Below, in pieces: positions 5,416-15,662 of a DNA stretch of 64,000 nucleotides; within the stretch, counting starts at the first letter, position 1; every line of letters starts with the position of its first letter. The position numbers and the translations under genes are program-made. The notes beneath the pieces are model-generated. The model was given only the letters and a program-made list of their open reading frames with translations. It ran no database searches and was not told the DNA's origin. This stretch comes from Actinomycetales bacterium (GTDB lineage: Bacteria > Actinomycetota > Actinomycetes > S36-B12), in the NCBI GenBank assembly GCA_016125355.1, contig WGLX01000004.1:1-64000 (forward strand), given 5' to 3'.

Positions 5416-6900
5416 TCAGCCAGCGGTCTCGCGGACGCGTTCGCCAGCAGAGCGGACCACGGCCCGGGACGCGAGCCAGGTCCAGCCCGGCTCACGACTG
5501 GGCGCCTCCTCCGAGACGATGGCGAAGCCGGCCTTGGCTGCGTTGCCGAAGTCGTCGTCGACGTGGACCGCGTTCTCGAAGCCGTGGTGGTGCAGCATCG
5601 ACACGACCGCCGAGGCCCGGTAGCCGGAGCCGCAGTACACGTAGACGGGCTCGGTGCGCGGGAGCTCGCCCATGCGGTCGTGGACGTCGTAGAAGGGCAT
5701 GAACGTCGCCCCCGCCACGTGGCCGGCCTCCCACTCGAGGATCTGCCGGGTGTCGAGGACGACACCGGCGTGCTCGACGTCCCATTCGGCCTTGAGGCCG
5801 TCGAAGGTGACCCTCCGGATGGTCTTCGGCTGCTCGCCGTCCTCCATCCAGAACACCGGGCCGCCCACCGCCTGCGCGGCCGGTCGGTCGATGCCGACGC
5901 GGACCAGCTCCCGCTGGGCGGCCTCGATCTGCTCGGTCGTCGCGCCGAGCAGGGTGACGGGCGTGCCCCACGGGATCATCCACGCGAGGTAGTTGATGAA
6001 CGGGCCGTCGAGGTCGAAGTTCACGGACCCCGCGACGTGCCCCGCCGCGAACATCTCGCGGCTGCGCAGGTCGACGATCCACTCCCCGGCGTCGATGCGT
6101 CGGCGCAGCTCGGCCGGCTCGGCGAGCACGGGCAGCGACAGGTCCACGTCGGCCGGGCCGGCAGCGTTCGTCGGGCCCATGTGGGCGTAGTAGGCCGGGA
6201 AGACGTCGAGTCCGGCGAGCAGGACCTCGACGAAGTCCTCCTCGCGCTGTGTCAGCGCCGGGTTGATTCCCTTCTCCTGCCCGATGTTCGTCTGCACGCC
6301 CTCCGTCTGGATGGAGGAGCAGAAGGAGCCGAAGCCGTGGGTCGGGTAGATCGCGGTCTCCTCGTCGAGCCGCTCGACGAGGCGGTGCGCGGAGTGCCAC
6401 TGGTCGTGCGCCTGCTTCTCGGTCAGGTCCGGGGCGACCAGGTCGGGCCGGCCCACCGTTCCGTAGAGGAGGGACCCGCCGGTGAACACCGCACCGGGAT
6501 GCCCGTCACGGCTCACCGCGAACGAGACGTGGTGCGGGGTGTGGCCGGGCGTGTGGACGACGGCCACGTCGAACGAGCCCACGCGGAAGGTGTCGCCGTC
6601 GCGGACCGGAACGACCCCGTCCTGGCCGAGGTAGGCGAGGTCCACGTCACCGGGCACGACGTAGATGGCGCCATGGCGACGCGCGAGCTCGAGGCCGCCC
6701 GTGACGTAGTCGTTGTGGATGTGGGTCTCAGCAACATGCGACACGGTGAGGCCGTGCTCGGCCAGCAGCCGTTCGATCCGGTCGAAGTCGCGGGGCGGAT
6801 CGACGACGAGGGCATGGTCACCATCGTGCGCGATGTAGCTGCGGTCCCCGAGGCCCTTGGTCTCGAGGACGAGGATGTGCGGGGCGCTGGTGTAGGTCAT
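5416..6900 (-). CDS. MBL-fold/tandem rhodanese fusion (CstB-like)
   Basis: A 494-residue cytosolic protein. Residues 1-240 are a metallo-beta-lactamase-fold domain of the ETHE1/persulfide-dioxygenase type (H60, H62, D64 in THIHND; H120 in TPGHT). Residues about 262-350 form a rhodanese domain without a catalytic Cys, and residues 372-465 an active-looking rhodanese with Cys423 in YCGSGYR. This order matches CstB of Staphylococcus, which oxidises persulfide and releases thiosulfate. Two things differ from ETHE1: the last residue of the HxHxDH motif is Tyr65, and the Asp that binds iron in ETHE1 (TGD) is Gly142 (TGGSLLYG). Dioxygenase activity is therefore inferred, not shown. It follows the single-domain rhodanese gene by one base and shares its promoter. 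Confidence 0.85.
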   Translation of the reverse strand: MTYTSAPHILVLETKGLGDRSYIAHDGDHALVVDPPRDFDRIERLLAEHGLTVSHVAETHIHNDYVTGGLELARRHGAIYVVPGDVDLAYLGQDGVVPVRDGDTFRVGSFDVAVVHTPGHTPHHVSFAVSRDGHPGAVFTGGSLLYGTVGRPDLVAPDLTEKQAHDQWHSAHRLVERLDEETAIYPTHGFGSFCSSIQTEGVQTNIGQEKGINPALTQREEDFVEVLLAGLDVFPAYYAHMGPTNAAGPADVDLSLPVLAEPAELRRRIDAGEWIVDLRSREMFAAGHVAGSVNFDLDGPFINYLAWMIPWGTPVTLLGATTEQIEAAQRELVRVGIDRPAAQAVGGPVFWMEDGEQPKTIRRVTFDGLKAEWDVEHAGVVLDTRQILEWEAGHVAGATFMPFYDVHDRMGELPRTEPVYVYCGSGYRASAVVSMLHHHGFENAVHVDDDFGNAAKAGFAIVSEEAPSREPGWTWLASRAVVRSAGERVRETAG

Positions 6901-6901
6901 G

Positions 6902-7213
6902 TCAGGCTCCTGAGGTGACGGCGAATCCGGCCGAGCGCCAGGCGGACGTGCCGCCGTCCACGCTCACGGCGTGCACGCCGTGCCGATCCAGGTAGGACGC
7001 GGCCTGGTAGCTGCGGTTGCCGGTCTCGCAGACCAGCCAGATGGGCTGGGAGCCCTTGATCTCGTCCATGCGGAGGGGGACCAGGCTCAGCGGGATCCAC
7101 TCGGCATGGGGGATGTGCCCGGAGACGAACTCATGCCGCTCGCGGACGTCGATGACACGTTCGCCGCGCTGGTGCGCGGCCGCCAGTTCGGTGACATGTG
7201 CAGTGAAGACCAT
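6902..7213 (-). CDS. single-domain rhodanese (sulfurtransferase)
   Basis: A 103-residue cytosolic rhodanese with the catalytic Cys62 in VCETGNRS and the family's N-terminal IDVRERHEF motif. It likely carries persulfide sulfur to or from partner proteins, as CstA-type and PspE-type rhodaneses do. I chose the ATG at 7213 because a -10 hexamer lies exactly 7 nt before it and no Shine-Dalgarno is present, which suggests a leaderless mRNA. It is the first gene of a two-gene operon with the CstB-like fusion. Confidence 0.9.
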   Translation of the reverse strand: MVFTAHVTELAAAHQRGERVIDVRERHEFVSGHIPHAEWIPLSLVPLRMDEIKGSQPIWLVCETGNRSYQAASYLDRHGVHAVSVDGGTSAWRSAGFAVTSGA

Positions 7214-7220
7214 GCGGGAA

Positions 7221-7249
7221 ATAATACCCCCGGGGGTATTGGTCCGCAA
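7221..7249 (-). promoter_or_regulatory. leaderless promoter of the rhodanese operon
   Basis: Read on the minus strand, TTGCGG (7249-7244), a 17-nt spacer, then TATTAT (7226-7221), followed after 7 nt by the ATG at 7213. This spacing puts the transcription start at or next to the start codon. The operator at 7223-7240 fills most of the spacer and overlaps the -10 box, so a bound repressor would exclude RNA polymerase. Confidence 0.65.
7223..7240. promoter_or_regulatory. CsoR/CstR-type operator, perfect 18-bp palindrome
   Basis: AATACCCCCGGGGGTATT is a perfect palindrome. CsoR-family repressors (copper sensor CsoR, persulfide sensor CstR) bind sites of this ATACC-GC tract-GGTAT type. Because it controls rhodanese and CstB-like genes, a CstR-like persulfide sensor is the likelier ligand. 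No CsoR-family gene is present in the window, so the regulator must be encoded elsewhere. Confidence 0.7.
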
Positions 7250-7346
7250 GTCGGTGGATGACCGCAGGACGCGCCGCGACGTCGCACCGACGACCCGAGG
7301 TGACGTGGGACAGATGAGTCAAACACCAGCGATAGCAGGCGTTTTC

Positions 7347-7379
7347 GCTCGTTTCTCCCACTACGTGGGAGAAACGAGC
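7347..7379 (-). terminator. 15-bp perfect hairpin after hpt
   Basis: GCTCGTTTCTCCCAC (7347-7361), a TAC loop, then the exact complement at 7365-7379. It starts 10 nt beyond the hpt stop codon and separates the dacB-side genes from the rhodanese operon. The short loop and perfect stem fit an intrinsic terminator; the flanking T tract is weak. Confidence 0.6.
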
Positions 7380-7389
7380 CAACCGTGGG

Positions 7390-7944
7390 TCAGCCGCCGT
7401 AGACGTGCGGCGCGAGGGTGCCGACGCACCGGAGGTTGCGGTACTTCTCCGCGAAGTCCAGGCCGTACCCCACGACGAACTCGTTGGGGATGTCGAAGCC
7501 GATGTACCGCGGCGCGACGTTGACCTTCTGCGCGTCCGGCTTGCGCAGCAGGGTGAAGACCTCGATGGACGCGGGCCCCCGGGAGCCGAGGTTCTTCAGC
7601 AGCCAGGACAGGGTCAGGCCGGAGTCGAGGATGTCCTCAACGACGAGCACGTGCCGACCGCTCAGGTCGGTGTCGAGGTCCTTGAGGATGCGGACCACGC
7701 CGCTCGACGTCGTGCCAGAGCCGTACGACGACACCGCCATCCAGTCCATCTCGGCGGTCCGGTGCAGGCTGCGCGCGAGGTCGGCCATGACCATCACGGC
7801 ACCCTTGAGGACCCCGACGAGGAGGAGGTCCTTGCCCTCGTAGTCCCGGTCGATCTGGGCAGCGAGCTCACGCAGCCGCCCGGTGATCTGCTCCTCGGTG
7901 AGAAGGACGTGCTCAAGTTCCGTGGTCAGGTCCTCAGGCTCCAC
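7390..7944 (-). CDS. hpt: hypoxanthine phosphoribosyltransferase
   Basis: Salvages hypoxanthine (and guanine) to IMP/GMP using PRPP in the cytosol. The 184-residue protein has the PRPP-binding signature [13 protein letters not shown] and a C-terminal DFAEKYRNL. The frame is open far upstream, but I place the start at the GTG at 7944, preceded by an ACGGAG-like ribosome site; homologs begin at this point. It overlaps the end of tilS by 11 nt. hpt normally sits directly beside ftsH in actinobacteria; here the rhodanese operon lies between them. Confidence 0.93.
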
Positions 7945-8977
7945 CGGGCGCTCCGTTCTCGGGGGTGGGCGATCGCAGCCACAGCCTGCCACAGTCGCGC
8001 TCGGCGACGACCCCTCCTGGCAGACGTGCCTCTCCCTGGCCACGCCAGCGGTCGACGAAGTCGCGCAGCCGCTGCACGTGGTCGTAGTCGAGGTCCTCAC
8101 CCGGGGCACCTGCCGCCAGTGCCATCGCGCGGAGGACCCGGCCCCGGATCGCCCCCGGCAGCGCCGCCAGCTCACCGCAGTCCGCCGACCATGCACCTTC
8201 GCGGCGGACGGCCACCGCGTCGAACGCCTCCCGCGCCGCGGCATCCAGCGCGTCCGCATCCTCGCGGAGCAGGTCGGCGGTCCGGCTCAGGCCGCGCACG
8301 ACGCCCGGGCCGAGCGCCTCGCCCAGGTCGTCCAGCAGCCGACGGACCCGCACGCGGGCGAACGTCGGGTCCTCGTTGTGCGGGTCCGACCAGGCACCGC
8401 GGCCCAGGGGTGCGAGGGCCTCGCGCGCGGCGGCCCGCACGGTGGCTCGCTCGAGGTGGAGGAAGGGGCGGCGCCAGAGACCCGACGACGTGGCCATGCC
8501 GGCCAGGCTCCGGGCCCCCGACCCGCGGGTCAGCCGCAGGAGAACGGTCTCGGCCTGGTCCTCCCGGGTGTGCCCGAGCAGCACGGCGTCAGCGCCGGCG
8601 GCCACGGCCGCCTCCTCGAGGGCCGCGTAGCGGGCCGTACGAGCCGCCGCCTCGGGGCCTCCCGGACCGGACACCTGCACGCGGACCACCTCGGCGGGCA
8701 CGCCCAGGAGCCCGCACGCCTCGGCGGCGGCGTCCGCCACCTGGGCCGAGCCGACCTGCAGGCCATGGTCGATCACGAGGGCCGACGCGGCGAGTCCCCG
8801 TCGCTCGGCCACCCACCCGGTCGCGGCCACCAGTGCGATGGAGTCCGGGCCGCCGGAGCACGCCACCATGACCCGCCCCAGCACGCCCCGGTCCTCGCGC
8901 GTCGACAGATCGTCGACCGCCATCGACACCGCCGTGCGCGTGTCCACGGTCTCGGTTGACGCGGACCGAGCCGTCAC
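7934..8977 (-). CDS. tilS: tRNA(Ile)-lysidine synthetase
   Basis: Attaches lysine to C34 of the CAU-anticodon isoleucine tRNA, changing its decoding from AUG to AUA. The 347-residue protein has the ATP-pyrophosphatase P-loop SGGPDS at residues 41-46 and an IDHGLQ motif after it. Length is typical of actinobacterial TilS without the full C-terminal domain. It overlaps the preceding zincin gene by 4 nt and hpt by 11 nt. Confidence 0.94.
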
Positions 8978-10038
8978 GGCAGCGACTCGACCCGACGGAG
9001 CCAGCCATGTGGGTCATGCAGCTCCGCGCGGGTGGGCAGGTACTCCGGCGCCGTCCACACCCGGTTGAAGTCGGCCATCCCCACCGCGTCCACGGCGGTG
9101 CGGACGAATGCCGCACCGTCGCTGTACTGCCGGAGCTTGGCATCCATCCCCAGCGCCGTCCGTGCGAGGGCGTCCAGCGCCCCCGGCTGCTCGCGGCGAT
9201 GGGTGAAGCGCTCGCGGATCAGGCCCACCGACGGGATCACCTCCGGGCCCACCGCGTCCATGACGACGTCGGCGTGCCCCTCGAGCAGGGACATCAGGGC
9301 CGTGAGCTCGTCGAAGATGACCCGCTGCTCGGGTGTCTGGATCGCCTCGATGACACTCACGTCGCTCTCCGAGCGGAGGGAGCGCACCATGGCGTAGCCG
9401 AACGCCACCAGGCGCTGGAGCGCCTCGCGGGCGTTGAGGTCGGAGGCCTCGAGCAGTGCCGTGATGCGGTCGGTCAGGTGGTCGGCCAGCCACGGCACTG
9501 CTCCGAACTGCACGCGGTGGGTCTCCTCGTGAAGGCAGACCCAGTAGCGGAAGTCCCGGCTGGGGACCCCCAGCTGCTGCTCCACGTGCACGATCGTCGG
9601 GGCGACGAGCAGGAGCCGCTTCGGCGCACCAGGGTCGACGAAGGTCTCGAACTGGCCGAGCACCTTGCCGGACAGCCAGGCAAGCACCGCGCCCAACTGG
9701 AGGGCCGTGCCCCGCGAGCCGAGGCTGCGGACGACGGCGGGCGCCGCCTCCGCCTTGTCGGCGAACGCGCCCCAGGTGTTCAGCACCACCCGCATCCCGG
9801 AGACGTTCGACGCGATCCAGCCGGAGCGGTCCACGACGGCCGCTGTCGTCGTCGTGGGGGCGATGAGTCCGGTCACCTCCTGCACGGGGCCCACGGCGTC
9901 CTGCGCGAGCGCGCGCAGCATCACGACCGCGTCCCGGGCCTCCTCGGCCGGCAGGTCCGGTCCCTTCGGCGCGAGCCGGCGGGCGGTCGCGATGGCGAGG
10001 TCCCAGTCGACCGGCTCGACGGGCACGGCCTCGGTCAT
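8974..10038 (-). CDS. zinc-dependent metalloprotease-like protein (DUF2342 / F420-associated family)
   Basis: A 354-residue predicted zincin with HEETH at 170-174 and a downstream SLLEGHAD segment offering a third ligand. It belongs to the actinobacterial family annotated as coenzyme F420 biosynthesis-associated or DUF2342, which usually sits next to tilS. Substrate is unknown. The ATG at 10038 is chosen; the open frame above it lies over manA. No signal peptide is seen, so it is probably cytosolic. Confidence 0.85.
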   Translation of the reverse strand: MTEAVPVEPVDWDLAIATARRLAPKGPDLPAEEARDAVVMLRALAQDAVGPVQEVTGLIAPTTTTAAVVDRSGWIASNVSGMRVVLNTWGAFADKAEAAPAVVRSLGSRGTALQLGAVLAWLSGKVLGQFETFVDPGAPKRLLLVAPTIVHVEQQLGVPSRDFRYWVCLHEETHRVQFGAVPWLADHLTDRITALLEASDLNAREALQRLVAFGYAMVRSLRSESDVSVIEAIQTPEQRVIFDELTALMSLLEGHADVVMDAVGPEVIPSVGLIRERFTHRREQPGALDALARTALGMDAKLRQYSDGAAFVRTAVDAVGMADFNRVWTAPEYLPTRAELHDPHGWLRRVESLP

Positions 10039-10048
10039 CGGCAGCCCA

Positions 10049-11095
10049 CTAGCGCGCCCCGGTGGGAGCGTCCGGCGCGGGCGGACGGCACACGACCCCG
10101 ACGAGCGCGTCGCCGTGGCCATCGCCGTGGAGGGTGTACTCACCCGCGGCATAGGGCACGAGGACGACATCACCGCGGGAGACCTCGAGGGACCCGCCCG
10201 GGCTGGCGAGGACGCCCCGCCCGGCCAGGACAAGGACGATGGCGAAGCCGGCATCGACGCTTACCGGTCCGTCCGCGGCGTCGAAGCGGTGCGCCCGGAA
10301 GTACGCGTCGGCGGCGGCGGGCATGGTCGACGCGAGGCCGGCCCCTTCGATGGACTCCCGAGGGATGACGAGGCGATCGAGATCCGAGTCCGACACCGCG
10401 CCGAGCTCCACCGCCTGCAGGGCCGTGTCGAATCCGAGGTCCAGGTGCCCGTCACGCGCGCCGTCCACGGCGAAGCCCTGCCACTCGAGCAGGATCGAGA
10501 GGTCGGTCGGCTCCTGCAGTTCGAGGACGAAGACGCCCGCGGCGACGGTGTGCGGCAGGCCGGCCGGGACGAGCATCGCGTCCCCGGGTCGCACCACGCG
10601 GGTGCGCAGCGCGCCCAGCAGGGCGTCGCTGTCACGCGCCGCCACCCAGTCGGCCACCTGCGGAAGGGTCATCGCCTCCGCGAAGCCGACGCCGACCTCC
10701 GCCCCCTCGGGGGCATCGAGCACGTACCAGGCCTCGGTCTTGCCATGGGCCAGGCCGAGATGGGTCCGGGAGAACGCGCGATTGGGGTGGAGATGGACGG
10801 GCAGCCGCTGGTCGAGGTCGAGCAGCTTGACGAGGACCTCCGTGCTCGACCCGTAGCGCTGCACGTGATCGGGCCCGAGCCACGCCTCCGGATCGGCGTC
10901 GACCTCGTCGAGGAGGAGCCGTCCGTCCGGCAGCACGCTGAAGCCCTGAGGCGCCTGGCCGAAGCGCGCCGTCGTGGAGCCGATCCACTCCTCCGGGCGC
11001 TGCGGTCCGCCGGGCCCATGCCGCAGCTCGCCGATCCGGTTGCCACCCCGGTAGAAGTGGTCGAACTGGTTCACCGGCAGCAGCAGCGGCCTCAT
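10049..11095 (-). CDS. manA: mannose-6-phosphate isomerase, class I
   Basis: Interconverts fructose-6-phosphate and mannose-6-phosphate for cell-wall mannose supply. The 348-residue cupin-fold enzyme shows zinc ligands in VHLHPN (H101, H103), E121 in GKTEAWYVL, and a later His in PAGLPHTV. It starts at an ATG and lies 10 nt upstream of the zincin gene, so it may be co-transcribed with it and tilS-hpt. Its presence within the dacB-tilS block is less common than the block itself. Confidence 0.93.
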   Translation of the reverse strand: MRPLLLPVNQFDHFYRGGNRIGELRHGPGGPQRPEEWIGSTTARFGQAPQGFSVLPDGRLLLDEVDADPEAWLGPDHVQRYGSSTEVLVKLLDLDQRLPVHLHPNRAFSRTHLGLAHGKTEAWYVLDAPEGAEVGVGFAEAMTLPQVADWVAARDSDALLGALRTRVVRPGDAMLVPAGLPHTVAAGVFVLELQEPTDLSILLEWQGFAVDGARDGHLDLGFDTALQAVELGAVSDSDLDRLVIPRESIEGAGLASTMPAAADAYFRAHRFDAADGPVSVDAGFAIVLVLAGRGVLASPGGSLEVSRGDVVLVPYAAGEYTLHGDGHGDALVGVVCRPPAPDAPTGAR

Positions 11096-11138
11096 GGCGC
11101 ATCCCTTCGCAGGCTCGATGTCGATGGGGCCGCCCCGC

Positions 11139-12467
11139 TCACGACGCGCATCCGCACGTCGCCAGCCGACTGGCGACCTCGTCCATAGTCTCTCGCGTCC
11201 TCGGGATGGAGGACACGTCGTTGTCGATCATCGCGAACACCAGCAGGCGCCCGTCGGCGGCGAGCACCGTGCCGGCCATGCTGACCACGCCGGTGAGCGT
11301 CCCGGTCTTGGCGTGCACGAAGCCCCGCCCGGGCCGCGTGGCGGAACTGGTGAACCGGCTCGCGAGCGTCCCGGTGAGTCCGGCGACCGGGAGCCCGGGC
11401 GCGATGGCCGACAGATCGTCGTTCTGACCCTGCACGACATCGGTGAGGACGGCGGCGAGCACCGTCGCCGGGATGCGATTGCGCCGCGAGAGACCGCTCG
11501 CGTCGACCAGGGTCACTCCGCTGATGTCGATGCCCAGGGCCGCCAGTGAGGCGCGGGCGGCGGACGCACCCCCGGCGAACGTCGGCTCCCCCTGGCTCGC
11601 ACCCCCGGCGAGGTGAGCGAGTGCCTCGGCGTAGTTGTTCTCGGATTCGGTGAGCATGCGCTCGACGATGTCGGCAACCGGCGGGGATTCCACGCGAGCG
11701 AGCTCCGTGGCGCCCTCGCTTGCCTTGCCGGCAGATACCGACGAGACCGTCACGCCCTGACGCCTCAGAAGCTGCGCGAAGGTCGTGGCCGCCTGCTGGG
11801 CAGGATCGCTCACCCGGCTTCGTGACCTTGGGCTGGTCCGCCCGCCATCGACGACCAGCGCGGTCACGGGTGCCACCACGCCGGCCGACGGGAAGGACGA
11901 GGGCCAGCCCGGACCGAGGGTCCGGCCGCGGAACGCCGTGGCATCGTAGACCAGGTCGATGGGGCCGTCGAGCTGCGGAGCAGTGGCCTTTGCCAACTCC
12001 CTGAGGGAGGCGCTCCCTCCACGCAGGGGGTCACCGCCCTTGGCCCGAACGAGCGTGGGGTCGCCTCCGCCCACGAGGTACACGGTGCTGCCGTCCTGCG
12101 ACGCCACCGTCGGGATGCGGGTCTGCGGTCCGAGGATGTCGAGCGCGGCGACCGCCGTCGTGAGCTTGGTCGTCGAGGCCGGGATCACCGGCTGATCGGG
12201 GGCGCGGCTGAACAGCAGCTGCCCGGTGGCCGGGTCGGAGACGACCACCGCACTGGACCCGAGGCCCTTGCGGACGAGTCGGCCGATCTCCGCTGCCACC
12301 CCGGTGGCCGTCGCGGCGGGGCCGCTGCTGGGCGACAGGGGGGCGAGGACCGCGGGCGCCGGGGCCGGGGGCGGCGTGGAGTCCGCCCTCGCGGGGGCTC
12401 CGACGACGACCGACAGCAGCGTCGCCAGCACGAATGCGACGAACGCCTCACTGCGACGCGTGCCCAC
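11139..12467 (-). CDS. dacB: D-alanyl-D-alanine carboxypeptidase/endopeptidase (PBP4 type)
   Basis: Trims or cleaves peptidoglycan cross-links outside the membrane. It has an N-terminal signal/anchor segment (VAFVLATLLSVVVGAPARA) and the penicillin-binding motifs in order: STTK near residues 98-101, SENN, and KTGT near the C-terminus. An in-frame ATG lies at 12488, but I prefer the GTG at 12467, because AAGGAGG sits 4-5 nt before it. Divergent from ppa, as is usual in actinobacteria. Confidence 0.92.
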   Translation of the reverse strand: MGTRRSEAFVAFVLATLLSVVVGAPARADSTPPPAPAPAVLAPLSPSSGPAATATGVAAEIGRLVRKGLGSSAVVVSDPATGQLLFSRAPDQPVIPASTTKLTTAVAALDILGPQTRIPTVASQDGSTVYLVGGGDPTLVRAKGGDPLRGGSASLRELAKATAPQLDGPIDLVYDATAFRGRTLGPGWPSSFPSAGVVAPVTALVVDGGRTSPRSRSRVSDPAQQAATTFAQLLRRQGVTVSSVSAGKASEGATELARVESPPVADIVERMLTESENNYAEALAHLAGGASQGEPTFAGGASAARASLAALGIDISGVTLVDASGLSRRNRIPATVLAAVLTDVVQGQNDDLSAIAPGLPVAGLTGTLASRFTSSATRPGRGFVHAKTGTLTGVVSMAGTVLAADGRLLVFAMIDNDVSSIPRTRETMDEVASRLATCGCAS

Positions 12468-12564
12468 GATTCCTCCTTCGGCCCGCATCTAGGGAACACT
12501 AAGGCACGGCGGGAGAGCGCCCGCCGGTCCGGGCGCGACCCAGCGCCGCATGAGGAGGTCAATC

Positions 12565-13071
12565 GTGCAGCCGCTCGAGTTCGACGTCACCATCGAGATC
12601 CCCGCGGGCAGTCGCAACAAATACGAGATGGACCACGACAGCGGCCGCATCCGGCTCGACCGCATGCTCTTCACGTCCACGCGCTACCCCCATGACTACG
12701 GATTCATCGACAACACGCTCGGCCTCGACGGGGATCCGCTGGACGCTCTCGTGCTCATCGACGAGCCCACCTTCCCGGGCGTGGTGATCCGCTGCCGGGC
12801 CGTGGGCATGTTCCGCATGACGGACGAGGCGGGCGGCGACGACAAGGTCCTGTGCGTGCCGTCGAGCGACCCGCGCAAGGAGCACCTGCGGGACATCCAT
12901 CACGTCCCGGAGTTCGACCGCCTCGAGATCCAGCACTTCTTCGAGGTCTACAAGGACCTCGAGCCAGGGAAGAGCGTCGAAGGCGCCACCTGGGCCGGGC
13001 GCTCGGACGCCGAGAGGGAGATCCGCGAGTCGTACGCCCGCTTCGAGTCGACCGGAGGCCACGCGCACTGA
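12565..13071 (+). CDS. ppa: inorganic pyrophosphatase (family I)
   Basis: Hydrolyses pyrophosphate from biosynthetic reactions to two phosphates, Mg-dependent, in the cytosol. The 168-residue protein has [11 protein letters not shown] and the active-site signature GDPLDALVL. The in-frame ATG at 12550 is part of the ribosome site (GAGGAGG), so the GTG at 12565 is the likely start. It is divergent from dacB across about 97 nt. Confidence 0.95.
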
Positions 13072-13093
13072 ACTCCCCCACGGGCGTCGCCTA

Positions 13094-13111
13094 AGTGAAC
13101 GGAAGGTGAAC
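13094..13111 (+). promoter_or_regulatory. PHO-box-like direct repeat
   Basis: AGTGAAC (13094-13100) and GGTGAAC (13105-13111) are spaced by exactly 11 bp, the period of PhoP direct-repeat units in actinobacteria, where the unit read on the other strand is GTTCACC. It lies after ppa and 129 nt before the 71-residue protein, which it may control. Confidence 0.5.
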
Positions 13112-13239
13112 GGAAGTCGTCGGAAAAGTGGCCGCGACATGGCTGCCAGGTAACCTTCACGTGTTACGGTGCTCGCCGGATCGGGCGCACCGCGCGCCCA
13201 CGGGAGCCCCTCACCGGGCATGACTTCGTAGGAGGTGCC

Positions 13240-13455
13240 ATGAGATTCGGCATCCGCCGCGACCGGGCCGTCACTGACACCACCCCGCCGCTCCACCACG
13301 ACCACCTGATCTCCTCGCGCTTCGACACCGGCATCTGCCGGTTCGTCCTCGAGTGCTCCTGCGGCGACCACTTCGACACCCGCTACATCGACGAGGCCCT
13401 CGAGTACCGCGAGCTGCACGAGACGCTCGCACCCCTGGCCGACCAGCTCGGCTGA
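13240..13455 (+). CDS. small Cys/His protein, function unknown (71 aa)
   Basis: A 71-residue protein preceded by a strong ribosome site (AGGAGG, 5 nt before the ATG). It has a His-rich stretch HHDH at 19-22 and a possible metal site C33, C39, C41, H44 (C-x5-C-x-C-x2-H). The rest is acidic and helical. I do not recognise the family. The PHO-box-like repeat upstream suggests phosphate-starvation control, and it lies just before the SQR-like operon, which has its own promoter. Confidence 0.7.
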   Translation: MRFGIRRDRAVTDTTPPLHHDHLISSRFDTGICRFVLECSCGDHFDTRYIDEALEYRELHETLAPLADQLG

Positions 13456-13528
13456 GCGGTCCTCCCGGGCGCCGGAGGGACCACCCGGGTCGGGACCTTC
13501 GTCACCGCAACTCCCGCACTTTGGCAGG

Positions 13529-13556
13529 CTGACAGGATCCCCCGGAGGCATACCGT
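13529..13556 (+). promoter_or_regulatory. predicted leaderless promoter of the SQR-like operon
   Basis: CTGACA (13529-13534), 16 nt, then TACCGT (13551-13556), then exactly 7 nt to the ATG at 13564. The geometry mirrors the promoter of the rhodanese operon, which also ends 7 nt before its ATG. A GGAGG at 13544-13548 is too far from the ATG to act well as a ribosome site. Confidence 0.5.
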
Positions 13557-13565
13557 CGGGGGTAT
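13550..13565. promoter_or_regulatory. CsoR/CstR-type operator overlapping -10 and start codon
   Basis: ATACCGTCGGGGGTAT: the outer five bases on each side (ATACC, GGTAT) are a perfect inverted repeat around a G-rich centre. It shares these half-sites with the perfect palindrome at 7223-7240. It covers the predicted -10 and the first two bases of the start codon. Confidence 0.6.
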
Positions 13566-14811
13566 GAAGAAGTTGCTGATCCTCGGCGGGGGAACCGCCG
13601 GATCCATGGCCGCCAACAAACTGCGCCGGAAGCTCGCGACGAACGAGTGGGAGATCACCGTCGTCGACGCCGACGACAACCACCGGTACCAGCCCGGCTA
13701 CCTGTTCATCCCGTTCGGCACCTACAAGCCGACCCAGGTGACCAAGAGCCGGCGCAAGGCCCTCAACAAGGACGTCCCCCTCGTCTACGGCGAGATCGAC
13801 CAGGTCCTTCCGGAGGAGAACGCCGTCCTGCTCACCGATGGCCGTCGCTTCGACTACGACGTCCTCATCATCGCCTCGGGCGTCTCGCCCCGTCCCGACC
13901 AGACCGACGGGATGATGGGCGAGGAGTGGGGCAAGAGCGTCTTCGAGTTCTACACCTACGACGGCTCCGTCGCCCTGTCCAAGGCCCTGGAGAAGTTCGA
14001 TGGCGGCAAGCTCGTCATCAACATCGTCGAGATGCCGATCAAGTGCCCCGTGGCACCGCTCGAGTTCGCCTTCCTCGCCGACTCCTACTTCAAGGACCGG
14101 GGCATCCGCGACAAGGTCGAGATGACCTACGTGACGCCGCTCCCCGGCGCGTTCACCAAGCCGATCGCCGCCGAGGCCTTCGGCAACACGCTGGAAGAGA
14201 AGGGCATCGCCGTCGAGCCCGACTACATGCTGATGGAGGTCGACAACGAGAAGAAGGCCCTCGTCTCGTATGACGAGCGTGAGGTGCCCTTCGACCTGCT
14301 CGTGACGATCCCGCTCAACATGGGTGCCGAGTTCGTGGCCCGCTCGGGCCTCGGCAACGAGATCAACCTCGTCCCCGTCGACAAGTTCACCCAGCAGTCC
14401 AAGGCGTACGACAACATCTTCGCCCTGGGCGACGCCAACGACATCCCGGCTTCGAAGGCCGGCTCCGTGGCGCACTTCGAGATCGACATCTTCGTCGAGA
14501 ACTTCATGCAGTACATCGCCGGCAAGCCGTTGTCGCACCGGTTCGACGGTCACGCGAACTGCTTCATCGAGACCGGCGAGGGCAAGGCCATGCTCATCGA
14601 CTTCAACTACGACTACGAGCCGCTCCCGGGCAAGTACCCGGTGGCCGGTGTCGGGCCGATGAGCCTGCTGAAGCAGACCCGTATCAACCACATGGGCAAG
14701 CTGGCATTCCGCTGGATGTACTGGAACGTCCTCGTGCCGGGTCGCCCCATGCCCGTTCCCGCGCTGATGTCGACCTCCGGCAAGCGCACCGACCTCATCG
14801 AATCCAAGTAA
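13564..14811 (+). CDS. sulfide:quinone oxidoreductase-like FAD protein
   Basis: A 415-residue flavoprotein of the SQR/FCSD family. It has the FAD-binding GGGTAG at 8-13, a RYQPGYLF motif near 41-48 as in SQRs, a second dinucleotide-fold region, and GDAND at 289-293. Cys161 (KCPVAP) and Cys333 (ANCF) align with the redox cysteines that carry sulfane sulfur in SQR. It likely oxidises sulfide or a protein persulfide and passes electrons to quinone at the membrane face. It heads a three-gene operon with TusE/DsrC-like and DsrE-like proteins. A sulfur-unrelated NADH-dehydrogenase role is less likely given the neighbours. Confidence 0.85.
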   Translation: MKKLLILGGGTAGSMAANKLRRKLATNEWEITVVDADDNHRYQPGYLFIPFGTYKPTQVTKSRRKALNKDVPLVYGEIDQVLPEENAVLLTDGRRFDYDVLIIASGVSPRPDQTDGMMGEEWGKSVFEFYTYDGSVALSKALEKFDGGKLVINIVEMPIKCPVAPLEFAFLADSYFKDRGIRDKVEMTYVTPLPGAFTKPIAAEAFGNTLEEKGIAVEPDYMLMEVDNEKKALVSYDEREVPFDLLVTIPLNMGAEFVARSGLGNEINLVPVDKFTQQSKAYDNIFALGDANDIPASKAGSVAHFEIDIFVENFMQYIAGKPLSHRFDGHANCFIETGEGKAMLIDFNYDYEPLPGKYPVAGVGPMSLLKQTRINHMGKLAFRWMYWNVLVPGRPMPVPALMSTSGKRTDLIESK

Positions 14812-14823
14812 GGAGAGCACGAC

Positions 14824-15138
14824 ATGCCAACGACGACCATCAACGGGCGCGACGTCACGGTCGACGACGAGGGCTTCATGACCGTCTACGACGAGTGGGA
14901 CGAGGAGATCGGCAAGTCCCTCGCCGCCGCCATCGGCGTCGACATGACCGACGAGCACTGGAAGGTCATCCGGTTCCTGCGCGAGGACTTCAAGGCCCAG
15001 GGCGCGACGCCCACCATCCGTCGCGTCTCGACTGCGGGCGGCGTGGACACCAAGAAGCTGTTCACACTGTTCCCGAAGAAGCCTGCCAAGAAGATGGCCT
15101 ACATCGCCGGGCTGCCCAAGCCGGCCGGCTGCGTCTGA
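14824..15138 (+). CDS. TusE/DsrC-family sulfur carrier
   Basis: A 104-residue protein of the DsrC/TusE/DsvC family. It ends in the hallmark PKPAGCV, with Cys103 penultimate, the residue that carries persulfide. The second Cys that DsrC proteins of sulfite reducers have 11 residues earlier is Ala here, as in TusE-type carriers. The first half has the family's DEGF and YDEWDEEI motif. A ribosome site (AAGGAGAG) precedes the ATG. No dsrAB or tusBCD is present, so the likely role is moving sulfur between the SQR-like, DsrE-like and rhodanese proteins. Confidence 0.88.
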   Translation: MPTTTINGRDVTVDDEGFMTVYDEWDEEIGKSLAAAIGVDMTDEHWKVIRFLREDFKAQGATPTIRRVSTAGGVDTKKLFTLFPKKPAKKMAYIAGLPKPAGCV

Positions 15139-15152
15139 GGAGACCCGAAGAA

Positions 15153-15662
15153 ATGACCGCTGTTGAGTCCATGATCGTCCCGTCGTTCGACGACGAGGTC
15201 GAGACCGATCGCACCCTGGCGATCATCTGCTCCAAGGGCAGCCTCGACATGGCCTACCCGGGCCTGATCCTCGGCAACGCCGCCTTGGGTGAGGGTGTCA
15301 ACGTGCACCTGTTCTTCACCTTCTGGGGCTTCGACATGATCACCAAGGGCCGCATGGAGCACCTGGTGTTCTCGCCGGTCGGCAACCCGGCCACCCACAT
15401 CCCCGCCGCCCTCGCCCCGCTGCCCGGCCTGGCCAAGATGGCCACGCACCAGATGCAGAAGGCCATGGACGAGCTGGAGATCCCGCCCGTACCGGAGTTC
15501 CTCGACCTCATCAAGGCGTCCGGCGCCCACATCTGGGCCTGCCGGCTCAGCGCCGACATGAACCACCTCAGTGAGGACGATCTGTGGGAGGGTGTCGACG
15601 GCATCATCAATGCCAGCGACTTCATCGAGATGACGGACGGCGCGCAGCTGCTGTTCATCTAG
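15153..15662 (+). CDS. DsrE/DsrF-like sulfur relay protein (DsrE2 type)
   Basis: A 169-residue protein of the DsrE/F/H-like superfamily. It has Cys26 in the first strand-loop (IICSKGSLD) and Cys130 in IWACRLSAD, positions expected to carry sulfur in DsrE2 proteins; a hydrophobic stretch near 52-60 may mediate membrane contact. The frame is open upstream, but the ATG at 15153 is preceded by a GAGGAGA site and follows the tusE-like stop by 14 nt. It is the last gene before a strong terminator. Confidence 0.88.
   Translation: MTAVESMIVPSFDDEVETDRTLAIICSKGSLDMAYPGLILGNAALGEGVNVHLFFTFWGFDMITKGRMEHLVFSPVGNPATHIPAALAPLPGLAKMATHQMQKAMDELEIPPVPEFLDLIKASGAHIWACRLSADMNHLSEDDLWEGVDGIINASDFIEMTDGAQLLFI

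Follow-up and report, generated by a model that had tools for sequence, protein, structure and literature searches.

Two sulfur operons in a 64,000-nucleotide stretch of an Actinomycetales genome (assembly GCA_016125355.1, contig WGLX01000004.1, positions 1 to 64,000; hereafter the window) appear to belong to a dispersed persulfide/thiol regulon, controlled by a CsoR-family repressor that lacks the copper-binding histidine and acts on the operator ATACC-N6-GGTAT. We put the probability of this reading at about 0.8. The first operon encodes a rhodanese and a CstB-like fusion of metallo-β-lactamase (MBL) and rhodanese domains; the second encodes a type III sulfide:quinone oxidoreductase (SQR-III), a TusE/DsrC-family sulfur carrier and a DsrE2-like sulfurtransferase. 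Read directly from the sequence are the genes, the operators, their recurrence, one CsoR-family gene without the histidine ("His-less") and a split between operators with spacers of six (N6) and seven (N7) bases. The same operator has been published for ScCsoR of Streptomyces coelicolor (PMC7533328), so that the regulon described here is a variant of a known one. G, C and L numbers are our handles for genomes, contigs and loci.

Two operons begin at the same operator

The features of the window are as follows.

7224-7239: operator 1, ATACCCCCGGGGGTAT (ATACC-N6-GGTAT), found by motif search, preceding the rhodanese-dioxygenase operon
6902-7213, minus strand: single-domain rhodanese (PF00581), one cysteine, Cys62
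5416-6900, minus strand: CstB-like fusion of an MBL domain (PF00753) and two rhodanese stretches (PF00581), with Cys194 and Cys423 as sole cysteines
13550-13565: operator 2, ATACCGTCGGGGGTAT (ATACC-N6-GGTAT), its last two bases being the first two of the SQR start codon (A and T)
13564-14811, plus strand: type III SQR (NCBIfam NF049943), sole cysteines 161 and 333
14824-15138, plus strand: TusE/DsrC-family sulfur carrier (PF04358), with the penultimate cysteine (Cys103) only
15153-15662, plus strand: DsrE2-like sulfurtransferase (PF13686), Cys26 and Cys130
12550-13071: ppa (PF00719), between both operons

Matches to hidden Markov models (HMMs) bore out the gene content that an initial annotation of this DNA had given for both operons. 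The fusion protein aligned over nearly its full length with the structures 3tp9 (2.8e-52) and 3r2u (5.3e-48), the latter of which we take to be CstB of Staphylococcus aureus. Its domain order is MBL-rhodanese-rhodanese and its middle rhodanese has no cysteine, as expected of a CstB-like protein. It is presumed to be a persulfide dioxygenase/sulfurtransferase, with Fe(II) dioxygenase activity predicted. The SQR scored 633.8 bits with the type III model (cut-off 525), and its two cysteines match cysteine positions in the structure of a sulfide:quinone oxidoreductase (8dhk), where they presumably have a redox role. The model that it matches best describes the selenoprotein subtype of type III SQR, yet the gene itself encodes cysteines and has no in-frame stop. 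The carrier protein passed the general TusE/DsrC subfamily cut-off (TIGR03342, 87.2 versus 53.5 bits) and fell below that of the TusE equivalog of tRNA thiolation (NF008562, 68.8 versus 191 bits). Alignment with 1sau (DsvC) revealed that, of the two C-terminal cysteines of that protein, it has only the penultimate one; it is therefore a one-cysteine carrier and not a partner of dissimilatory sulfite reductase, and DsrC proper was ruled out for this gene. The DsrE2-like protein stayed under the NF047629 cut-off (88.5 versus 210 bits). Among the housekeeping genes between the operons, the HMM check covered ppa, the others being assigned from translations of their open reading frames.

The inverted repeats that the initial annotation had placed at both operon starts are perfect N6 copies. 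These are the only two in the window, and the motif never appeared in 100 dinucleotide shuffles. Tolerating up to two mismatches gave 4 copies against a mean of 4.48 by chance, that is, no excess; since two-mismatch copies are no commoner than chance, only perfect or near-perfect copies were counted as evidence. Promoters overlapping both operators are a plausible prediction. A −10 hexamer exactly 7 nt before each ATG had also been proposed. The spacing is indeed present on the coding strand (TATTAT-N7-ATG for the rhodanese, TACCGT-N7-ATG for the SQR), but the promoters themselves fared less well: TACCGT makes a weak −10, the SQR ATG starts within the operator, and a consensus scan of 7150-7350, on the rhodanese side and with the SQR promoter outside it, found no sigma-70-type promoter.

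The operator is dispersed over the source genome

The source assembly (3.34 Mb in 45 contigs, 96.4% complete) was scanned for the motif, with the reversed pattern as control. Nine perfect ATACC-N6-GGTAT sites were found against none for the control; this zero, together with that of the shuffles, ruled out chance palindromes as the origin of the operators. The genome scan that the initial annotation had advised thus added seven perfect sites, all at sulfur/thiol genes or at the gene of a Cys-rich 38-residue protein. Their targets are an SQR-like flavoprotein (L012), a SLAC1/TDT channel (L013), a lipoprotein rhodanese whose gene directly follows CopC and CopD/CtaG genes (L014:3430-6095), trxB-trxA (L015), the Cys-rich protein (L016), a CcdA-like membrane protein (L017) and a small rhodanese (L018). 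Allowing one mismatch gave 15 further sites, versus 6 in the control. One of these (C31:44927) lies upstream of csoR-copZ-copA, another separates a thioredoxin gene from one of DUF3039 type (a label taken from the HMM match of a homologue), and a third (C36:40921) sits inside a gene. The regulon would comprise about 11 sites rather than two.

Two side observations concern these targets. An operator separates the SLAC1 gene from a divergent gene for a 165-residue membrane-like protein with no Pfam match (L013:6224-6721, plus strand); similar-looking proteins occupy that place in several relatives (L130, L137, L158, L167). The CopC/CopD-CtaG genes beside an operator and a rhodanese gene constitute a second meeting of copper and sulfur genes.

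A single candidate repressor of the CstR type

One CsoR-family gene was found in the genome (PF02583, 78.2 bits versus a cut-off of 22.8); it lies on contig C31 and encodes a protein of 86 residues. It fits the gene without the copper histidine for which the initial annotation had suggested a search: its residues Cys35, Gly60 and Cys64 correspond to the Cys-His-Cys of Mycobacterium tuberculosis CsoR, with glycine in place of histidine, so that the set of copper ligands is incomplete. The best match in the Protein Data Bank, 7mq1, was named copper CsoR by its depositors, yet it too lacks the histidine; we take it to be the pneumococcal CstR. In the set used for tree building, the query, 7mq1 and 28 locus rows have another residue in place of the histidine, whereas 24 locus rows and two copper CsoR chains retain it. 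One branch (91/91) of the 82-column tree, which has few columns and long branches, parts the His-less from the His-type sequences, and the candidate falls with the His-less class. It is probably a repressor of the CstR type and kin of ScCsoR. The shared CstR-type regulon put forward in the initial annotation thus held as to operator and repressor class, with the limits that its sites number some 11 instead of two and that a copper input is possible.

An AhpD/carboxymuconolactone-decarboxylase-like gene (L011:6544-6919, minus strand) is divergent from csoR-copZ-copA and has a common promoter region with it. The same pairing with csoR occurs in relatives L098, L109 and L110. The AhpD-like label, like the peroxiredoxin-like and DCC-motif labels used below, was assigned from sequence motifs.

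The operator recurs with the His-less repressor

Eight related genomes contain 52 perfect sites, 43 of which precede homologues of regulon proteins of the source genome (rhodaneses, SQR-III, SLAC1, TrxB, thioredoxin, the 38-residue protein and the repressor). Among the other nine, two lie before persulfide dioxygenase (PDO) genes, one before a peroxiredoxin-like gene and two before DCC-motif genes, with four left unexplained. The DCC-motif genes, found in the loci of two relatives (L147, L160), encode small proteins with the sequence FDADCGVCQNG; the peroxiredoxin-like gene is in L140. A site with at most one mismatch was present in all 29 His-less loci and in one of 24 His-type loci, which are shorter, and in 28/30 His-less loci of a size-matched set; loci of the source genome and of very near genomes recur between these sets and those used below for spacer length. 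In Micromonosporaceae the repressor gene often has PDO, rhodanese, thioredoxin or SQR-III genes as neighbours, together with operators (L111-L117, L119, L120); in Pseudosporangium (L113) it lies between PDO and SQR-III-DsrC-DsrE2, with operators in between.

The survey was extended to 296 Actinomycetes genomes, 144 of which gave a match to the His-less type (E ≤1e-12; a check of the residue itself covered the 30 fetched loci, with Gly in 28, Glu in 1, Ala in 1 and His in none) and 152 of which did not. The mean number of perfect N6 motifs per genome, uncorrected for kinship, was 2.87 (control 0.24) with the His-less type and 0.62 (control 0.28) without it. Two or more motifs were present in 83/144 of the former genomes versus 18/152 of the latter.

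Spacer length separates two classes of operator

Three operators of the copper-sensing CsoR of Streptomyces lividans have 7 bases between TACC and GGTA (PMC3902906, Table 1), and the ScCsoR operator has a spacer of six (PMC7533328). The loci analyzed here split along the same line. Twenty-four His-type loci (73,790 bases), which come from SQR-III-carrying genomes rather than from a random draw and include 7 from outside Actinomycetota by record title or untitled as to phylum, held 16 N7 sites in 12 loci and no N6 site; L085-L091 had no N7 site. The 36 His-less loci (112,934 bases) held 41 N6 sites in 32 loci and one N7 site. Thirty loci around perfect N7 sites, one per genome and from the first groups listed, were then scored. 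Matches to copZ, copA or His-type csoR were present in 24, although 7 of these have a CopA match of 28-36% identity alone and may encode other metal ATPases, and 2 have a CsoR match alone; the remaining 6 had none. Matches to PDO, rhodanese, SQR, SLAC1, the 38-residue protein or the His-less repressor were found in none of the 30. CcdA was left out of the sulfur label in this scoring; one copper-type locus (L271) also has a CcdA homologue, a member of the family that stands behind an N6 site in the source genome. In the whole source assembly there was no perfect N7 site, the spacing of copper CsoR operators.

The copper operon has a His-less repressor gene in this lineage

In sister genomes G005, G006, G007 and G008, copZ and copA (68-69% identity) stand behind a His-type csoR with an N7 site. 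In the source genome and in G002, G003, G004, G009, G031, G039 and G041, copZ-copA stand behind the His-less gene, with an N6 site of 0-1 mismatch. G199 also has copZ-copA after the His-less gene with such a site, and G306 is arranged likewise, except that no copZ was detected in it; two perfect N7 sites lie elsewhere in the G306 genome. A second close CopA was not found in the source genome, where the next match is 34% identical. The simplest account would be that in this lineage the copper repressor and its operator were replaced by a His-less repressor and an N6-type operator.

A Cys-rich microprotein accompanies the operator

L016:6768-6884 (G000:C33), plus strand: 38-residue Cys6-His microprotein, preceded by a perfect N6 operator

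Homologues of this 38-mer were matched in 118/296 Actinomycetes genomes. Thirty loci, fetched as the best matches only, contain 33 genes of the family. A perfect N6 operator lies no more than 150 nt upstream of 24 of them, a number that rises to 26 when one mismatch is allowed. Six cysteines and one histidine are invariant in 32/32 aligned rows, and the two members scanned matched no Pfam or NCBIfam model. The 38-mer and the His-less repressor co-occur in excess of expectation: 87 of the 296 genomes have both, 57 the repressor only, 31 the 38-mer only and 121 neither. A longer paralogue exists in relatives. The family appears to be unnamed, widespread and about 38-55 residues in size. Its members could be zinc or copper peptides or carriers of sulfane sulfur, both being possible.

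Within the accessible text of the open-access literature searched, we found no statement of a spacer rule between the paralogues and no description of a small Cys-rich protein in such a context. The spacer split (His-less repressors and sulfur/thiol genes going with N6, copper CsoR and copZA with N7), the arrangement of copZA behind a His-less repressor with an N6-type operator, and the microprotein with its N6 operator all look new. Tentatively, and at somewhat less than even odds, we propose that in Actinomycetes a 1-bp difference in spacer divides persulfide- and copper-sensing CsoR operators into two regulons, that in the lineage of the source genome copper CsoR and its N7 operator were lost and copZA crossed to a persulfide-type repressor with an N6-type operator, and that the Cys6-His microprotein is a core member of the N6 regulon, carrying or buffering sulfane sulfur.

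Evidence against the regulon and alternative explanations

Homology searching with the SQR identified 43 loci. A DsrC homologue comes next in 43/43 and a DsrE2 homologue is present in 42/43; the record of the one remaining locus (L058) stops shortly afterwards. By record title the loci include Actinomycetota, Anaerolineae/Chloroflexi, Flavobacteriaceae, Aminicenantes, Armatimonadetes and Myxococcales. The SQR-III/DsrC/DsrE2 trio is widespread; its control by the N6 operator is not. Several observations on this and other points weigh against the proposed regulon. The start of the SQR-III gene is covered by 42 of the loci, and 12 of these have an operator within 60 nt of it, namely 5/12 close relatives (at least 75% identity), 7/9 Micromonosporaceae and 0/21 others. 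The operator is absent from 7 of the 12 close relatives even though the three genes stay together. Control of the SQR-III operon is therefore lineage-specific, and a universal link between operator and SQR-III was ruled out by the same count. Fewer than two perfect motifs occur in 61/144 genomes with the His-less type, and at least two occur in 18/152 genomes without it. In G001, which may be incomplete, no CsoR-family gene was found, yet there are 8 sites. The candidate repressor is itself the first gene of csoR-copZ-copA; as the only candidate heads a copper operon, copper has to be reckoned with as an input. Lastly, the relay from SQR through DsrE2/TusE to the rhodanese/MBL protein, suggested in the initial annotation, would have shared control as its basis.

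An alternative, which we regard as unlikely, is that this is a copper regulon: the repressor would bind Cu(I) through its two cysteines and control copper export, a metallothionein-like peptide and thiol repair, the sulfur genes belonging to a response to copper stress. The place of the repressor gene in csoR-copZ-copA would fit, as would the lipoprotein rhodanese gene following those for CopC and CopD/CtaG and the six invariant cysteines and histidine of the 38-mer family, which would suit a metal-binding peptide; M. tuberculosis RicR reportedly controls a metallothionein. However, the copper histidine is absent here and, by definition, throughout the His-less class, whose members adjoin PDO, rhodanese and SQR genes in other families. 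Furthermore, copper CsoR/copZA loci are mostly of the N7 kind, of which this genome has no perfect example, and ScCsoR, with the same operator class, answers to sulfane sulfur (PMC7533328). As a sole reading, the copper regulon was lowered by the missing histidine and the spacer class, and was kept as a rival.

It is less probable still that another regulator is responsible, such as the product of a CsoR-family gene that the assembly (96.4% complete) does not cover, and that the gene in the copper operon serves self-regulation only. Related genomes with more than one CsoR-family gene do exist, and the one-mismatch site at C31:44927, in the repressor's own promoter, would be compatible with self-regulation; the site is nevertheless of the same operator class as the others. 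Moreover, the eight clade genomes (the source genome, G002, G003, G004, G009, G031, G039 and G041) each have one CsoR-family gene, His-less and located before copZ-copA, so that the same gap would be needed every time. The overlap of some palindromes with the presumed −10 and the start codon might suggest that they are promoter or structural elements common to leaderless genes rather than repressor sites. This is highly improbable: the palindromes are rare, with 9 copies in this genome, are found again at homologous sulfur/thiol genes of other genomes, vary in their distance from the start between -2 and about 90 nt, and are identical to the motif that binds ScCsoR (PMC7533328).

Proposed mechanism

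From these data we infer how repressor binding, the inducer, promoter use and the sulfur route may be organized in this genome under a persulfide/thiol regulon. The His-less repressor would probably sit on N6 operators that overlap short-leader or leaderless promoters and sometimes the start codon. By analogy with ScCsoR, a rise in sulfane sulfur would modify the two cysteines of the repressor and release it from DNA. On derepression, the SQRs would oxidise sulfide, the carriers (DsrE2, TusE-like) and rhodaneses would move sulfane sulfur, and the CstB-like dioxygenase would turn persulfide into sulfite, which the SLAC1/TDT channel may export. Thioredoxin and thioredoxin reductase would be made in the same response. 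Copper export would probably be tied to the persulfide signal through the repressor gene, as the first gene of the copZ-copA operon.

Relation to known systems

In S. aureus, the targets of CstR are said to be clustered; here they are dispersed, TusE/DsrE2 carriers are among them and the repressor is linked to copZA. The likeness lies in a persulfide-sensing repressor of the CsoR family with rhodanese, CstB and SQR targets. The closest parallel in the phylum is S. coelicolor ScCsoR (SCO0620), which binds ATACCn6GGTAT and keeps genes for persulfide dioxygenase, rhodanese and a sulfite transporter repressed until sulfane sulfur/polysulfide releases it, both cysteines being required (PMC7533328). 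It shares with the present system the 16-bp operator, two cysteines 29 residues apart, the PDO/rhodanese/sulfite-transporter targets and its origin in Actinomycetota (PMC7533328). Unlike here, it governs a four-gene circuit that its authors set apart from SQR circuits (PMC7533328); the present system has about 11 dispersed sites and includes SQRs, TusE/DsrE2 carriers, thioredoxin genes, the microprotein and copZA.

The TusE- and DsrE-like carriers had initially been viewed as an addition to the CstR set. The carriers are present, but they are no novelty: the CstR-like YrkD of Bacillus licheniformis controls dsrE- and tusA-like genes together with sqr and pdo, so that there, too, sulfur carriers stand beside these genes (PMC9918477). 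The YrkD system differs in having TusA instead of a TusE/DsrC-family protein, a single 11-gene cluster and NreBC in addition (PMC9918477). In an operon of Methylacidiphilum fumariolicum, which goes up about 1.7-fold with H2S, genes for a sulfur carrier and DsrE2 likewise come after that for a type III SQR; the carrier is TusA-like, and the accessible text mentions no CsoR-type operator (PMC10205796). The S. lividans copper CsoR resembles the present system in protein family, TAC/GTA inverted repeat with G-tracts and copZA targets; it differs in the 7-nt spacer of its three operators (PMC3902906), versus 6 here, and the regulator here lacks the copper histidine. TTHA1953 of Thermus thermophilus is likewise a CsoR-family regulator of dispersed sulfur genes that shares no sites with the copper CsoR, but its operator is TACNNTACNNNNGTANNGTA and its targets are sulfur-oxidation (Sox) genes (PMC10318464).

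Copper-type and His-less CsoR paralogues coexist in many of the actinobacteria examined, on near-identical DNA. A one-base spacer rule, if true, would let targets be assigned from sequence. The microprotein is a concrete, uncharacterized case for which the regulatory context is a strong lead. The move of the copper operon into the sulfur regulon would be a natural case of regulator replacement, and it raises the question of why copper should be exported when persulfide rises.

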